Source: Sulfurovum sp. (GTDB lineage Bacteria; Campylobacterota; Campylobacteria; Campylobacterales; Sulfurovaceae). From it: a DNA stretch of 44,293 bases. The stretch covers positions 1 to 44,293 of the forward strand of contig JAAXPZ010000055.1 in the NCBI GenBank assembly GCA_012329065.1. The letters are read 5' to 3'. Below, piece by piece: positions 22,145 through 30,710 of the stretch. The translations under genes and the position numbers were made by a program. The notes under the pieces are model-generated. The model searched no databases, was not told the DNA's origin, and saw only the letters and a list, made by a program, of their open reading frames with translations. Within the stretch, counting starts at the first letter, position 1. Each line of letters opens with the position of its first letter.

Positions 22145-24354
<2,210 letters not shown>

Positions 24355-24387: not shown

Positions 24388-25842
24388 CTACAGACCTAGT
24401 CCAAAATCCTTAATGATATTAAAAGCTGCTGTGCGACCATCTCTTGCTGCTGTTACGGCTAGATCTGCACCTGTTACCCCATCTCCACCTGCAAAAATTC
24501 TTCTATTTGAGGTTCTTTTATCTTTGTCTACAATAATCTCTCCCCATCTACCAGCATTAATCTGAGCTGTGCTATACCAAGCAAACTCATGGTTGTCAAA
24601 TCCTAGTGCCAAGATAATCACATCACATTCTAGCTCAAACTCACTGTCCTCGACCACACTTAACTTTCTTCTACCATCCTCCCCAGGCTCTCCAAGTGCA
24701 GTTTTTTCACATATGAGCCCTTCGACATGATTTCCTTTATCTACAATAACCTCTTTGGGGGCTGTATAGAATTCAAATATGACGCCCTCCTCCTGAGCGT
24801 TAATACGCTCTTTTGCAGAACCTGGCATATTGTCTGCATCTCTTCTATAGGCACAACGAACCGATTTTGCCTTCATCCGCACAGAAGTCCTAACTGCGTC
24901 CATCGCAGAATCACCACCACCTATGACTATCACATTTTTGTCTTTAAGAATATTTTCATAGAAATCTTCAAAAACACCCTTTTGAGCATGAGTGAGAATG
25001 TCCATTACTTGATAAACACCATGAGACTCCTCATTTTTCATCCTAGCTCCTCTTCCATCAGGAGCCCCTACTCCCACAAAAATAGCATCGTACTCATCAA
25101 TCATTTCTTTCATCTGCTCTGGCTTATCGATATAACTATCTAGATGAAGATGCATTCCTGCCTCCTGCATCCACTCAAATCGTCTCAGAATGACCTCTTT
25201 TTTTATTTTAAAATTAGGGATTCCATAAGTAAGAAGTCCACCAGGTCTATCTGACTTCTCAAACATATCTACCTCTACACCAGCTCTTAGTAAAAAAGTA
25301 GCGCAACTCATACCTGCAGGACCGCTCCCTATAACAGCCACTTTTTTACCACTTTTTGGTACATTTTGTCCATAGTCTGGCACTAGACCCATTTGAAATG
25401 CCTGTTCATTTAGATAAGTCTCTATTGCTCCAATGGTTACAGAACCACTCTCTGTTTTGGATATTGTACAACCACCTTGACAAAGATTGTCATGAGGGCA
25501 TATCATTCCCAAAATCTCTGGAAAAGGAGATGTTTCGTTGCTTAACTCAAATGCTTTTTTGATGTCGCCATTTTTAGTAGCCTCTATCCAGAGGGGAATT
25601 TTGTTCTCAAGCGGACATCCTGTACGACAAAAGCTAAACTCGCTACTCATGCCTTTAAGTAAGTCGATAGGACACTTAATACATCTACTTGACTGCCTAT
25701 CAGCCTCCTCTCTGTTAAAAAGAAAGTAAGTTGGGCTAAAATCAACCTTTCTTAATGCAGCTTCTCTTTTTCTTGGAGTTTCTTTTTTGACCTTGAGATA
25801 CTGTTTCTTTTTACTTACCACTTTACTTGCCACTTCACTCAT
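24388..25842 (-). CDS. GltD-like NAD(P)H-dependent Fe-S flavoprotein
   Basis: A 484-residue member of the glutamate synthase beta-subunit family. Two N-terminal cysteine groups for [4Fe-4S] clusters are present (CIKCPIDLLKG with FCRTGCPLENKIP, and CPHDNLCQGGC). The FAD site is VAVIGSGPAGMSCATFLLRA, and the NAD(P)H site is VIVIGGGDSAMDAVRTSVR. The C-terminal FAD motif is ITGADLAVTAARDGRTAAF, written here from GVTGADL. Such subunits pass electrons between NAD(P)H and partner proteins. No gltB is nearby. Instead the gene overlaps hypA by 4 bases at the end of a hydrogenase operon, suggesting it serves as the pyridine-nucleotide arm of that enzyme. This partnership is inference. Confidence 0.88.
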   Translation of the reverse strand: MSEVASKVVSKKKQYLKVKKETPRKREAALRKVDFSPTYFLFNREEADRQSSRCIKCPIDLLKGMSSEFSFCRTGCPLENKIPLWIEATKNGDIKKAFELSNETSPFPEILGMICPHDNLCQGGCTISKTESGSVTIGAIETYLNEQAFQMGLVPDYGQNVPKSGKKVAVIGSGPAGMSCATFLLRAGVEVDMFEKSDRPGGLLTYGIPNFKIKKEVILRRFEWMQEAGMHLHLDSYIDKPEQMKEMIDEYDAIFVGVGAPDGRGARMKNEESHGVYQVMDILTHAQKGVFEDFYENILKDKNVIVIGGGDSAMDAVRTSVRMKAKSVRCAYRRDADNMPGSAKERINAQEEGVIFEFYTAPKEVIVDKGNHVEGLICEKTALGEPGEDGRRKLSVVEDSEFELECDVIILALGFDNHEFAWYSTAQINAGRWGEIIVDKDKRTSNRRIFAGGDGVTGADLAVTAARDGRTAAFNIIKDFGLGL

Positions 25843-26180
25843 TGATTATCCTTTAACTCTATATACTCTATATGCATCTCTTGACCTGTCATGACCTCTG
25901 TATTACCACCCTCACAATGGGGGCAGAAGAAATTATAACTATCTACCATTGCCTCTTTGGCACAATCAGTACATCGAATTGTAATATCTATAAGATTTAT
26001 TGTCATGCTGGCATCAGAACAGACAGTATCTTCTTTGAATATATCAAAGCTGTCTTTGAGAAAGTGTGGCTCTATGCCACTCATCTTCCCTATCTTTGTC
26101 ACCACCTTCTCTACAGGCTTACCCTTTGCATGTTTTTCACAAAGATCAAGCATAGACATTACGATAGAATACTCATGCAT
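25839..26180 (-). CDS. hypA: Hydrogenase nickel-insertion protein HypA
   Basis: A 113-residue HypA, which delivers nickel to the hydrogenase large subunit with HypB. The nickel-binding start is MHEYSIVMSML (a Tyr after MHE, within family variation), and the zinc site is two CxxC pairs (CTDC and CPHC, about residues 70-90). It lies between the ferredoxin gene and the GltD-like gene, overlapping the latter by 4 bases. The other hyp genes are not in the window. Confidence 0.94.
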   Translation of the reverse strand: MHEYSIVMSMLDLCEKHAKGKPVEKVVTKIGKMSGIEPHFLKDSFDIFKEDTVCSDASMTINLIDITIRCTDCAKEAMVDSYNFFCPHCEGGNTEVMTGQEMHIEYIELKDNQ

Positions 26181-26186
26181 CGATAT

Positions 26187-26726
26187 TTATCCTTTCTGGC
26201 TCATCATTAGATTGAATTCTACATGGTCGATCATGCTTATTGCGTCAGTTGGACAAATACTTATACAGGCTTGTTTACCGTTCTCTCCGCCACAAAGGTC
26301 GCAGGTAAGTGACACCATTTGACTAACAGGTGCATCTGGCTTGGTATTGGTAGCCATTGTTACAGCTCCATATGGGCATACCATATCACAGCTTGTGCAT
26401 CCGATACAGTCACTCTCATAGTATTTCACATAGTCTTCTTCAAAACGAATAATATCCACTGGGCAGGCTTCCAAACATGGAGCATCAGGACATTGCATGC
26501 ACTGTAGTGGTGCTGTCTTACCATCTATGGTCACAACTTTATTTCTCGAAGGCTCTATCTCTTCTCCTCTGCCAATCATTGCATAAACAGTATCTATGTC
26601 TGCGTCCATATGGCTGGCAGAACATGCAAGTTCACAATTAATACAACCTATGCATTTATCAGGATCGGCGTATATGAATCTATTGTTTCTAGTGACACTT
26701 TCAGTGCTGTTTCTGATTTCACTCAT
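26187..26726 (-). CDS. Four-cluster ferredoxin subunit (HycB/HydN type)
   Basis: A 179-residue protein with four [4Fe-4S] motifs in order: CIGCINCELACSASH, CMQCPDAPCLEACP, CIGCTSCDMVCPYG and CDLCGG..CISICPTDA. This is the electron-transfer subunit type of formate hydrogenlyase, DMSO reductase and related complexes. Its place between the large subunit gene and hypA suggests it carries electrons to or from the hydrogenase small subunit. It has no signal peptide, so the complex is cytoplasmic. Confidence 0.92.
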   Translation of the reverse strand: MSEIRNSTESVTRNNRFIYADPDKCIGCINCELACSASHMDADIDTVYAMIGRGEEIEPSRNKVVTIDGKTAPLQCMQCPDAPCLEACPVDIIRFEEDYVKYYESDCIGCTSCDMVCPYGAVTMATNTKPDAPVSQMVSLTCDLCGGENGKQACISICPTDAISMIDHVEFNLMMSQKG

Positions 26727-26734
26727 ATTCTTTC

Positions 26735-27832
26735 CTACCTATCTGTGCATGAAATGCATGGGTCTATACTGTTAAGAATCATCGTTACATTATCCACTTT
26801 ATCACCAAGAATCATCACTTTTAGTGCTTCCCAGTTTGTAAATGTAGGTACTTTCCATCGCATTCTTACTGGTTTTTGGCTTCCATCAGTTTTGAGGTAA
26901 TAGATAAGCTCCCCCCTAGGTGCTTCTGTTCTCACCACAGCCTCTCCAGCAGGGATGTGTGGTCTCTTGTCCACATAGGTATCACCCTCAGGCATATCTG
27001 CGACGACATCTCGTATAATTCTCACAGCCTCCAATATATCCCCAAATCTAGCCATCGCTCTAGCATGCACATCACCTTCTTTTCTGAGGCTAAGAGTGAC
27101 ATTTGGTTGAAGCTCTGGTCTATAAGCATATAGCCCGTATGGAGCCATGACCCTGACATCATTATTGATTCCACTTCCTCTAGCTACTGGGCCTGTTACA
27201 CCGATCTCAAGTGCATCTTCTAGTGGCAACACTCCAACACCTACAGTTTTAGTTTTCAGCTCTTCATCATTCTCGTAACGCTCTTTAAGATCTCTTATTT
27301 TTGGCTCTACAGTATCAAGTGTGTCTAGTATGATTTTTACCTTTCTATCATCAAGGTCATATTTGGTTCCTGTAAGAAGGTTGGAACTCATATCCATTCT
27401 ATTGCCCCATATTACCTCTTTGAGATCCTGCATATGTTCACGGGTATTCATAGTGTCTTTCATAAGCTCATGCGTATGTGCAATATGTGTAAGCATAGAG
27501 AGGTTAAACATATCTGATGCTACTCTTTTGACTTCATCAGCAACTACTCTTAATGCTTCTGCTCTCAGAGGTATCGTGATGCCCGATATCTTCTCTACTG
27601 CCATGGCATAAGTCATCGGGTGATTGTTAGAGCAGAGCGAACAGACCCTCTCTGTCAATATAAGATTTTGCATAAAGTTCTTTTTGGTTACTAGAGACTC
27701 CATACCCCTATGGATAAACCCATTAATGATCTCAACCTTCTCAACCATTCTATGCTCGTCTACTTCTAACTTGAAATAAACAGACTCTTCAAGTTCAGTG
27801 TGAAATGGTCCTATCTCTATCTTTTCACTCAT
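26735..27832 (-). CDS. Group 4-type [NiFe] hydrogenase large subunit, no C-terminal extension
   Basis: A 365-residue catalytic subunit related to CooH, EchE, the C-terminal part of HycE, and NuoD. Both nickel-binding cysteine pairs are present: RVCSLCSNNHPMTYA near residue 65, and DPCISCTDR at the very end. The TAG stop follows the final arginine directly. Most large subunits carry a further peptide that a protease removes after nickel insertion; here none is needed. All four ligands are cysteine, with no selenocysteine. The length equals Coo-type subunits. The start overlaps the upstream subunit gene by 4 bases. Confidence 0.93.
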   Translation of the reverse strand: MSEKIEIGPFHTELEESVYFKLEVDEHRMVEKVEIINGFIHRGMESLVTKKNFMQNLILTERVCSLCSNNHPMTYAMAVEKISGITIPLRAEALRVVADEVKRVASDMFNLSMLTHIAHTHELMKDTMNTREHMQDLKEVIWGNRMDMSSNLLTGTKYDLDDRKVKIILDTLDTVEPKIRDLKERYENDEELKTKTVGVGVLPLEDALEIGVTGPVARGSGINNDVRVMAPYGLYAYRPELQPNVTLSLRKEGDVHARAMARFGDILEAVRIIRDVVADMPEGDTYVDKRPHIPAGEAVVRTEAPRGELIYYLKTDGSQKPVRMRWKVPTFTNWEALKVMILGDKVDNVTMILNSIDPCISCTDR

Positions 27833-28335
27833 ACCTTAACCCCTTTGTTGACTTGACTCCACAATACATCTGTATCACTCACGCCCATCTGTATTTTCGA
27901 TAGAGATATATACTCATTAAGTACACCTTTGGCTATCGAATAATCCAAAAAAAGTCTATCTTTTGTTGGATGTCCGACAGGCTCAACATCATACATTTCA
28001 CGCAGCTCTCTCTCTGCCCAGTCAGCACTCCTGAGTATAGGTGTTATGGATATCACTGTTTTATCATTTGTATTGATCTGTGCATTCATAATCATGCCAT
28101 TTATGTCAAAATGATAAATGACCGTATGTGTACCATCCATCTCATTCAAGTAGCCTGTCGCAACAACACAACGACCTTTGAATGACTTGACAGCTTTTGC
28201 GACCACTTCCATATCTCTCTTGTCATGTAGCACTATCCAGCTGTTACTGTTTCCATAATGATCCACATCCTCTTTTAGCTCATAATCACCAAACAGTTTA
28301 TTTTTAATAGCATCATTAAACTCTTCTATGCTCAT
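27829..28335 (-). CDS. Hydrogenase subunit of the NuoC / 30-kDa type (CooU-like)
   Basis: A 168-residue protein equivalent to the N-terminal part of HycE and to NuoC: AVKSFKGRCVVATGYL, then VIYHFDINGMIMNAQI and the family ending SADWAERELREMYDVEPVGHPTKDRL split over about residues 120-150. It bridges the small and large subunits. The start at 28335 (MSIEEFNDAIKNKL) overlaps the stop of the small subunit gene as ATGA. A longer frame upstream is only the overlap. Confidence 0.92.
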   Translation of the reverse strand: MSIEEFNDAIKNKLFGDYELKEDVDHYGNSNSWIVLHDKRDMEVVAKAVKSFKGRCVVATGYLNEMDGTHTVIYHFDINGMIMNAQINTNDKTVISITPILRSADWAERELREMYDVEPVGHPTKDRLFLDYSIAKGVLNEYISLSKIQMGVSDTDVLWSQVNKGVKV

Positions 28336-29210
28336 GCGTACATCCTTTTGAAATTTGCCTCTTTTCTGCACTTGGAGCAGATGGTTGTATCTAACTTTTT
28401 GACATCATCATGCACATAGCCTTTGCCTAATAATCCTCTAGATGGTGGCATATAAGAATCTCCGCAACTACTACAATCACTAGGTTTTATTATTTCCGAA
28501 TTGACATCTTCAAATTTCTCACTCTGTAGCTTAACGGTGTCAAAGCTATTGGTAGAAAAGATAGCTCCAGTTGGACAGAAGTAAGCACAGTTTCCGCAGT
28601 AGCAGCAGGAGTTGTGCCAGATATTATGTACATGACCTTGTGCTATTTCAGTAATTTTGATAGCAGTAGAAGGACAAACTGTCTCACAAGTCCTACAGGC
28701 AGTACACATATCAGGGTTTAAATCCATTCTTCCCCTAAAGCTCTCTGGGGCAGAAAAGTCTTTAAAAATAGTATCAATGGTTTTTGGAATATCCTCACCA
28801 TTCATTACCTGATTAAGTACCTTTATACCTTTTGCAATCCCCTCTGCAATCGATTGAGGTCTTGGAGGGCAGCCTGCCACATTGACATTGACATCAACTA
28901 TTTTATCAGTTGGTCCGTTGATTGCATATGAGTCTCTAAAAATACCGCAAGTCACTGCGCAAGTGCCTACCCCAACAACCACATAGGGATGTCGTATCTT
29001 GCCCACTGCACTTTTCAAAAAAGACTCACTTCTGGCAGTTAGTGGGCCTGTAATTGCAATGATATTCGCATCTTTAATATCCTCTACCATCTCTACACCC
29101 AAAGTCGATACTCCAAATTTCTCGACCAGTATAGTTGGCATAAATTCAACATCACATCCGTTACAGCTTCCAGTATTTATCCTGAATAGCTTTGGCACAA
29201 CTTCGCTCAT
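28332..29210 (-). CDS. Hydrogenase small subunit fused to ferredoxin domain
   Basis: A 292-residue fusion. Residues 1-150 are the NuoB/HycG-type small subunit with the proximal cluster cysteines in NTGSCNGCDVEFMP, VGVGTCAVTCGIF and VAGCPPRPQSI. Residues 165-225 hold two [4Fe-4S] motifs (CTACRTCETVCPS and CCYCGNCAYFCPTGA). The tail adds two further CxxC pairs (CSSC and CSKC), possibly a zinc site. In Coo systems the two parts are separate genes (cooL, cooX). GAGGA precedes the ATG. It is the first gene of the operon, and no membrane subunit gene (CooM/K, HycC/D, EchA/B type) is present on either side. Confidence 0.92.
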   Translation of the reverse strand: MSEVVPKLFRINTGSCNGCDVEFMPTILVEKFGVSTLGVEMVEDIKDANIIAITGPLTARSESFLKSAVGKIRHPYVVVGVGTCAVTCGIFRDSYAINGPTDKIVDVNVNVAGCPPRPQSIAEGIAKGIKVLNQVMNGEDIPKTIDTIFKDFSAPESFRGRMDLNPDMCTACRTCETVCPSTAIKITEIAQGHVHNIWHNSCCYCGNCAYFCPTGAIFSTNSFDTVKLQSEKFEDVNSEIIKPSDCSSCGDSYMPPSRGLLGKGYVHDDVKKLDTTICSKCRKEANFKRMYA

Positions 29211-29505: not shown

Positions 29506-29605
29506 TGGGGGGCATGTGACCCTGGTGGGCACCCCGGGCTTCAAACCCGTGTGTCTGGGCGGTTGACCGTCTGGAGGGAGGTTCGATTCCTCCGCCTTCT
29601 CGCCA
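29506..29605 (+). tRNA. selC: Selenocysteine tRNA, anticodon TCA
   Basis: About 100 bases including encoded CCA. The anticodon loop is CTTCAAA (anticodon TCA, reading UGA). The long extra arm is GGGCGG with CCGTCT around TTGA. The T arm is GGAGG-TTCGATT-CCTCC, and the 3' acceptor strand is GCCTTCTC followed by G and CCA. All this is typical of bacterial tRNA-Sec, so the organism probably makes selenoproteins such as formate dehydrogenase. The 5' acceptor strand is unusual: TGGGGGGC gives three G.U pairs and a T/C mismatch at the first pair. The exact 5' end (29506 or 29507) is therefore uncertain. Confidence 0.88.
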
Positions 29606-29845: not shown

Positions 29846-30710
29846 CTACGCCACATGCAGATGCAGAAGAACCAACTGCATCTCCACCACAAGAAGCTCC
29901 ACTGCAGACCACACAATAATCTCCACCACAAGAAGTTCCATCTCTGCGTTTGTCTTTCTTTAAGATTTCATAAGCTTCTTTACACTACTTGGTTGAAGCT
30001 CTATAGGCTTTCATACCTGCGATAAATCCAGCTTTTTTAAATGCCTCTTTGGTTGTGCTAGAACAAGTTCCATCTTGATAGAGTTCTCCTTTAGCACATT
30101 GGTACTTTTTTCTAGGGGAGAGAAATTTTTGGTAGATAGCTATCAAGAGTAGACCTATTTCTCGTAAGAGAAACAGTGGGATTATCAGCAAAAGTAACCA
30201 TGGTGATATTCTCATATTAATACGCAATAAACCGTTATCTTGAAATTTTATATCTTTTACAGAAGAGAACCAAGAGATTTTATCTAAAGCTTTTATAGGG
30301 ATTTTAATAGCTTCTAATCTACTTTTCAATACACCCTTAACCTCTTTTATTTGTATCAATTTATTGACCTTTAAAGAGAGAAGTTCAAATGATAACAATT
30401 TACCATGTAATTTTGGTATCGCTTTACTAAGTACAATTATGTTCATAGATTTTTTAGGCAGAAACTTAGCAAATTTATTTACATGACTTACTTTTACAGA
30501 TGCACTTACTTTAGACTCCACAATATTGCGTGATATACCTAATATATCAATGTGATTGATAGTTACAACAAAGCCTTTTTTATCAATGTTTATAGGTAAC
30601 TTTTTATCCAAAGCGTTTTTAATAGTAGATTGCTCTATTTCTAAAGTATAGCTATAAAATAATGAACCCAATAGTAAAATAACTACAAAATATCTTAAGT
30701 AATTTGACAT
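29811..30710 (-). pseudogene. YidD-like membrane protein gene split by an in-frame amber codon
   Basis: The first 241 codons encode a signal or anchor segment (MSNYLRYFVVILLLGSLFYS), a soluble domain resembling the DUF1439 lipid-binding fold, and a membrane helix. A YidD-type module follows (LLIAIYQKFLSPRKKYQCAK, then CSSTTKEAFKKAGFIAGMKA). A TAG stands at 29985-29987 directly after RASTK. The same frame stays open for 57 more codons, starting CKEAYEILKKDKRRDGTSCG and continuing as a Gly/Cys-rich tail with eight cysteines up to TAA at 29811. CKEAYEILKKDKRRD looks like the natural continuation of the family, so a GAG or CAG codon probably became TAG. Either a recent nonsense mutation or read-through. 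YidD helps membrane protein insertion. Confidence 0.7.

Follow-up and report, generated by a model that had tools for sequence, protein, structure and literature searches.

The prevailing view is that group 4 [NiFe] hydrogenases, like complex I, cannot do without a membrane arm. What, then, is the function of a hydrogenase operon of this family that encodes no membrane subunit and ends in a flavoprotein resembling the small subunit of glutamate synthase (GltD)? The question is raised by contig JAAXPZ010000055.1 of Sulfurovum sp. (NCBI GenBank assembly GCA_012329065.1), analyzed here as a window of 44,293 nucleotides, in which the operon occupies positions 24388 to 29210 of the minus strand. 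A preliminary description had presented it as a group 4-type hydrogenase and had suggested a soluble enzyme exchanging electrons between H2, ferredoxin and NAD(P)H. Based on comparative sequence analysis, we propose that it probably encodes a reversible H2:NADP+ oxidoreductase that is soluble in the cytoplasm and descends from the CO-induced hydrogenase (CooMKLXUH-HypA-CooF). The six genes, in order of transcription, are as follows:

28332..29210, minus strand: small subunit, a fusion of CooL (NuoB-like, proximal cluster) and CooX (two [4Fe-4S] clusters); Pfam Oxidored_q6 and Fer4
27829..28371, minus strand: CooU-like subunit (NuoC or 30 kDa family) with a GTG start; Pfam Complex1_30kDa
26735..27832, minus strand: CooH-like [NiFe] hydrogenase large subunit; Pfam/NCBIfam, PDB relatives and trees
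26187..26726, minus strand: CooF/HydN-like four-cluster ferredoxin subunit; NCBIfam AegA N-terminus/HydN
25839..26180, minus strand: HypA nickel metallochaperone; Pfam HypA, 101 bits
24388..25842, minus strand: GltD-like flavoprotein (flavin adenine dinucleotide (FAD), two [4Fe-4S] clusters, NADPH motif); Fer4_20 and Pyr_redox_2

All six genes had been listed in the preliminary description and were found where it placed them, and its remark that nearly all junctions overlap or almost touch was also accurate: in order, the junctions measure -40, -4, +8, +6 and -4 bases, followed by +79 bases to nifS. The 40-base overlap joins the small-subunit gene to that of CooU, whose position is conserved in every locus with flanks. 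As had likewise been claimed, no membrane subunit is encoded: a Pfam search of the operon proteins returned no membrane-family match, and the minus-strand open reading frames adjoining the operon contained no NADHdh or antiporter subunit. Promoter and terminator scans gave no excess relative to shuffled sequences. The membrane-free operon recurs in relatives from Sulfurovum, Sulfurimonas, Hydrogenimonas and Sulfurospirillum, in the same order of six genes, or of seven if CooL and CooX are encoded separately. Separate CooL and CooX genes are found in Nautiliales and most Sulfurospirillum relatives. The nearest operon, from a Sulfurovum metagenome-assembled genome, has a large subunit with 94% identity, and the ratio of nonsynonymous to synonymous substitution rates (dN/dS) against the nearest relative was 0.02-0.05 where dS was computable, dS being near or beyond saturation. 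These values argue for strong purifying selection and against decay and, together with a gene order shared by several Campylobacterota families, indicate that the arrangement is not due to chance.

The large subunit itself has the attributes of a genuine hydrogenase, as judged from its residues. Aligned to its best solved relatives, Pyrococcus furiosus MbhL (PDB 6cfw) and Escherichia coli HycE (PDB 7z0s), CooH displays invariant CxxC pairs at residues 64/67 and 359/362, and it retains the canopy Arg and Asp as well as the two acidic residues in the beta1-beta2 loop, residue roles being taken from published work (PMC9474812). Its C-terminus directly follows DPCISCTDR, with no extension, as in all members of its clade. 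In the large-subunit tree, which was built without the reference CooH of Rhodospirillum rubrum or C. hydrogenoformans, this clade contains 44 sequences from Campylobacterota, Desulfobacterota and Bacillota (Shimodaira-Hasegawa-like approximate likelihood-ratio test (SH-aLRT), 99) and is apart from the Hyf and Ech enzymes of the same genome.

One member of the clade ties it to the CO-induced hydrogenase. The Desulfosporosinus operon L094 encodes, in order, an antiporter-like protein (1270 aa), NADHdh, NuoB, ferredoxin, NuoC, the large subunit, HypA, a HydN-like ferredoxin and CooS. Because this is the order CooMKLXUH-HypA-CooF-CooS, the window genes correspond to CooL+CooX, CooU, CooH, CooF and HypA, with GltD added. 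The CooF slot of L094 holds the ferredoxin adjoining CooS, and in the PDB the CooF-like subunit of the window resembles HycB3 and HycB4 of the hydrogen-dependent CO2 reductase (HDCR). The CooX part of the fusion carries a C-terminal CxxC..CxxC metal site comparable to that of HycF, and hypA is also part of the operons of membrane-bound relatives; hypD is present in the source genome. We therefore infer a stripped CO-induced (CooLXUH-CooF) hydrogenase, presumably of HydDB group 4c type, so that the group 4 core of the preliminary description stands and its generic label is refined through the CooS-linked clade. Compared with the CO-induced enzyme, the window operon has the same subunits and the same order for L, X, U, H, F and HypA, but lacks CooM and CooK, has CooL fused to CooX, has lost membrane-contact features, has gained GltD and has no CO dehydrogenase nearby. 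No CooS gene was found in the window locus, and among all clade loci examined only L094 has one. For the Sulfurospirillum SCADC operon, beside which a CO dehydrogenase has been cited (Kruse 2017), we found none within about 9 kb (L082/L169).

Might the membrane arm be encoded elsewhere in the genome? The Campylobacterota source assembly comprises 1.94 Mb in 82 contigs with an estimated completeness of 100%, and a genome-wide search, which the preliminary description had named as a test of its claim, recovered NADHdh-type membrane subunits only from complex I, a Hyf cluster and an Ech cluster, with no CooM or CooK. Since the Hyf and Ech clusters have their own large subunits, which belong to other clades, and the rest is complex I, there is no leftover CooK. 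The Ech cluster (contig C16) was considered as a Coo-like candidate and rejected, as it falls in a separate clade of the large-subunit tree.

The contact surfaces of the remaining subunits point the same way. In the structure of the formate hydrogenlyase complex, HycG loop 69-80 is one of four loops at the interface of the soluble and membrane arms, and HycF has an N-terminal amphipathic helix near the membrane surface that is found in all solved structures of the superfamily (PMC9474812). The interface motif within this loop (residues 75-80 of E. coli HycG), SP/NP-[KR]-[HQ]-[AS]-D, is kept in all five references (Ech, Hyf, HycG, HyfI and complex I NuoB). The window small subunit has neither the SP[KR][HQ]AD loop nor the membrane-surface helix of CooX. 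More broadly, the CooL motif GSPKHAD occurs in every membrane-bearing operon examined, Nautiliales included, and in no membrane-less one; operons with membrane genes retain the CooX segment equivalent to the HycF helix (MAGFFKIAIRNFL...), and those without lack it; and at position 119 of CooH, all membrane-bearing (14/14) and all other (21/21) sequences have Gly, against His or Lys in 27/27 membrane-less ones. The sequences compared are not independent, as one or two losses account for all of them. The loss of these features argues that the soluble module does not borrow the membrane arm of another complex.

The distribution of the clade, which is present in 24 of 397 genomes in a class-wide sample, suggests how the present form arose. 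All Desulfobacterota and Bacillota members with sufficient flank have membrane subunits (PF00361 and PF00146), with CooK/CooM-type genes upstream, and have no GltD. In Propionispira, an aldehyde:ferredoxin oxidoreductase gene (L092:697-2499) precedes the membrane-bound Coo-type operon. Campylobacterales-type members all lack membrane genes and all have GltD except L073, which lies on a short contig that stops before the GltD position. Six Nautiliales loci (L074 and L156-L160) have both, in the order CooM-K-L-X-U-H-F-HypA-GltD, and one more genome of the Nautiliales family (G050) has the membrane-free form. Because these six loci combine GltD with a membrane arm, the gene phylogeny indicates that GltD was acquired first and the arm lost later. 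GltD was gained once on the large-subunit tree. Independent double loss of the arm was not adopted: two losses are drawn in the best maximum-likelihood tree, but grouping all membrane-free members into one clade was not rejected (approximately unbiased (AU) test, p=0.245). The nine-gene operon of one Nautiliales locus (L158, genome G090) is the one we take to be Nautilia profundicola GAmH_1032-1024. Many relatives also have a gene for a 93-99 aa Cys-containing protein preceding the operon (L046:7613-7897, L063:7336-7623 and nine other loci); it falls into none of the families known to Pfam or NCBIfam, the window genome lacks it, and distant relatives of it are widespread in Campylobacterota.

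What does the added subunit contribute? The GltD-like protein has the Fe-S ligands, the FAD motif and the YRRDxxNMPGS segment common to NADPH-dependent GltD, with seven Cys and Glu141 invariant. GltDs of the hydrogenase operons further share an insertion of about ten residues between the first Fe-S cysteine pairs (RCIKCP-IDLLKGMSSEF-SFCRTGC), which is absent from the gltB-type GltDs compared and which, as a guess, could serve in docking. In the GltD tree they form one clade (support 99) that is sister to, and not within, the gltB-adjacent GltDs of Campylobacterota (97). By this placement the subunit appears to be a duplicated Campylobacterota glutamate-synthase small subunit, distinct from the gltB-adjacent group, and the clustering with true GltD that would have spoken against the preliminary description was not observed. 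Its phrase 'GltD-like protein without GltB' holds for the surroundings of the operon but not for the genome, which has a gltBD pair on contig C45 and a gltB without gltD on C78, neither of them near the operon. Nested inside the operon-type clade is one stand-alone paralogue from the source genome (C70, locus L053), which has the same insertion; the C78 gltB (L101) has no adjoining gltD, and the two are possibly unlinked partners.

These data bear on the suggestion that the protein is a glutamate-synthase small subunit merely parked in a hydrogenase operon. Two carriers (G034 and G050) have gltB and no other standard GltD, and N. profundicola GAmH_1024, likely the hydrogenase GltD, is annotated as the glutamate synthase partner (PMC2628731). 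However, three others (G044, G055 and G058) hold a gltB-adjacent GltD as well as the operon GltD, and genomes such as G007 and G026 manage with gltB and no GltD besides a complex-I-linked protein. Operon-type GltD occurred in 6 of 60 related genomes, exactly those with the hydrogenase, and was absent from the 54 hydrogenase-free relatives, nearly all of which have gltB. Given also its separate clade and unique insertion, we regard parking as highly unlikely.

We propose the following mechanism for the H2:NADP+ oxidoreductase. H2 would be split at the NiFe site of CooH, and electrons would pass by way of the CooL and CooX clusters to the ferredoxin resembling CooF. The GltD-like subunit would receive them in its [4Fe-4S] domain and FAD and hand hydride to NADP+, or the flow would run in reverse. 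A single path from H2 through CooH, CooL, CooX, CooF and GltD to NADP+ is the simplest reading; the path, its direction and the solubility of the assembled complex are inferred. Reduction of NADP+ by H2 is downhill at moderate or ordinary H2, unlike that of ferredoxin, which needs a push from the membrane, and a proton-coupled arm would thus be dispensable. By this account, the duplicated glutamate-synthase small subunit would have joined a still membrane-bound enzyme, as in present-day Nautiliales, with CooM and CooK lost and the contact surfaces eroded afterwards. The most likely use would be to supply NADPH for biosynthesis when H2 is available. Of the soluble enzyme exchanging electrons between H2, ferredoxin and NAD(P)H that had been described, solubility and the coupling to NAD(P)H through the GltD-like subunit are well supported by the comparisons, but a free ferredoxin partner is not, since the ferredoxin is a CooF-type subunit.

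Known systems offer partial precedents. AegA and YgfT of E. coli join a HydN/CooF-type ferredoxin to a GltD domain, a fusion which shows that the two modules can form one electron-transfer unit, although each is one polypeptide with no hydrogenase operon. We rejected the operon as a split AegA: the modules are the same, yet the genes are separate here, with HypA between them, and the GltD domain of AegA clusters with the GltD of E. coli, which makes the likeness convergent. A GltD-like gene also lies directly downstream of the putative glutamate-synthase-linked [FeFe] hydrogenases of group A2, for which NAD reduction has been suggested (PMC5037454), but there the soluble catalytic subunit is unrelated. 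HDCR and the NAD(P)-linked NiFe hydrogenases of groups 3b and 3d are soluble and link H2 to formate or NAD(P)H, but with other catalytic or flavin modules.

An alternative is that the GltD-type FAD bifurcates electrons as in NfnB, such that the oxidation of two H2 would yield one NADPH and one reduced ferredoxin, or the reverse, with no membrane potential needed; a hydrogenase of the complex I superfamily, freed of its membrane arm, would then have swapped proton pumping for bifurcation at the flavin of a subunit of GltD origin, and would use H2 to reduce both ferredoxin and NADP+ in the cytoplasm. NfnB/NfnL is homologous to GltD and carries the bifurcating flavin (PMC8097209), and autotrophs using the reductive tricarboxylic acid (rTCA) cycle need low-potential ferredoxin, for which the lost membrane arm would otherwise supply the energy. 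We nonetheless consider bifurcation doubtful, because the tree places the operon GltD with the GltD of glutamate synthase and at a distance from Nfn, the operon has no NfnA-like subunit (FAD and [2Fe-2S], the high-potential branch) and the genome already encodes a membrane-bound Ech for ferredoxin.

Several points weigh against the proposed H2:NADP+ oxidoreductase. In its favour, the pairwise distances of GltD over 46 operons correlate with those of the large subunit (r=0.96), as do the distances of CooU (0.97) and CooF (0.95), but such a correlation also reflects shared descent. An AlphaFold model of the GltD-like protein from an eight-sequence alignment was poor (predicted local distance difference test (pLDDT), 60) and was not used to place the insertion. 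The likelier nicotinamide, NADPH over NADH, is suggested by the YRRDxxNMPGS motif, and the electrons of GltD could go to some other acceptor, or the protein could double as a partner of glutamate synthase. Lastly, in S. multivorans echE transcripts were negligible, and activity in the soluble fraction was low or not detected in the conditions tried (PMC5357620, PMC6242987).

The enzyme could also be an H2:ferredoxin or ferredoxin:H+ hydrogenase with GltD as a loosely associated or regulatory reductase, in effect a fermentative H2 valve. By similarity, the Sulfurospirillum authors classed it as H2-producing (PMC6242987), and CooF-type ferredoxins can act as electron hubs. Against this stand the place of the GltD gene at the end of a tightly coupled operon, its strict co-occurrence and co-evolution with the hydrogenase and the unfavourable energetics of uncoupled H2 oxidation to ferredoxin, so that we judge a valve unlikely.

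The S. multivorans system, an 'Ech-like' EchEDFC (PMC5357620, PMC6242987), is apparently the same as that of the window, with CooL and CooX as separate genes. Kruse et al. described it in 2017 as 'lacking any membrane subunit' and possibly non-functional; with negligible echE transcripts and no CO dehydrogenase encoded (PMC5357620), it could be a decaying remnant of a CO-induced hydrogenase. Strong purifying selection and intact NiFe and Fe-S ligands across families make this scarcely credible, as does the proteome of S. cavolei, in which five of the six Ech-like subunits were detected (Kruse et al. 2018, PMC6242987). A term search of these two papers did not turn up the GltD-like protein; genome G268 has the membrane-free operon together with GltD. 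In Nautilia PV-1, the membrane-bound Coo-type Hyd-3 (CooFHKLMUX and an NADPH-binding subunit) was proposed to produce NADPH, given the co-expressed NADPH-binding subunit (PMC10092268). This is the same operon, including the GltD-like gene, except that membrane arm and interface motifs are retained. The missing membrane subunits of S. multivorans and the NADPH proposal for the membrane-bound Nautilia enzyme were thus already known, but were nowhere connected in the open-access literature searched; joining them is new here, as are the intermediate form, the eroded interface, a dedicated clade of GltDs and their strict co-occurrence with the hydrogenase.

Other features of the window lie close to the operon. 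Directly downstream, nifS and nifU (22145-24308, minus strand) overlap each other by 59 bases. Just upstream, on the opposite strand, is a selenocysteine tRNA gene (29507-29601, plus strand). A YidD-like gene (29985-30710, minus strand) has a TAG stop, beyond which the frame stays open for a Cys/Gly-rich tail of ~57 codons, to about 29812, and relatives in G014 and G008 match through this segment uninterrupted by a stop; nonsense mutation, readthrough and assembly error are candidate readings.

Overall, the steps of uncoupling appear to be visible within a single lineage: a flavoprotein was added, as seen in Nautiliales, the membrane arm was then lost, and the contact surfaces eroded. The lineage offers a natural control that separates coupling residues from catalytic ones. 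It also suggests a new reading of the Sulfurospirillum enzyme held to be possibly non-functional. For rTCA autotrophs, including N. profundicola, whose authors identified no standard NAD(P)H-generating route (PMC2628731), such an enzyme would be a plausible H2-driven source of NADPH.

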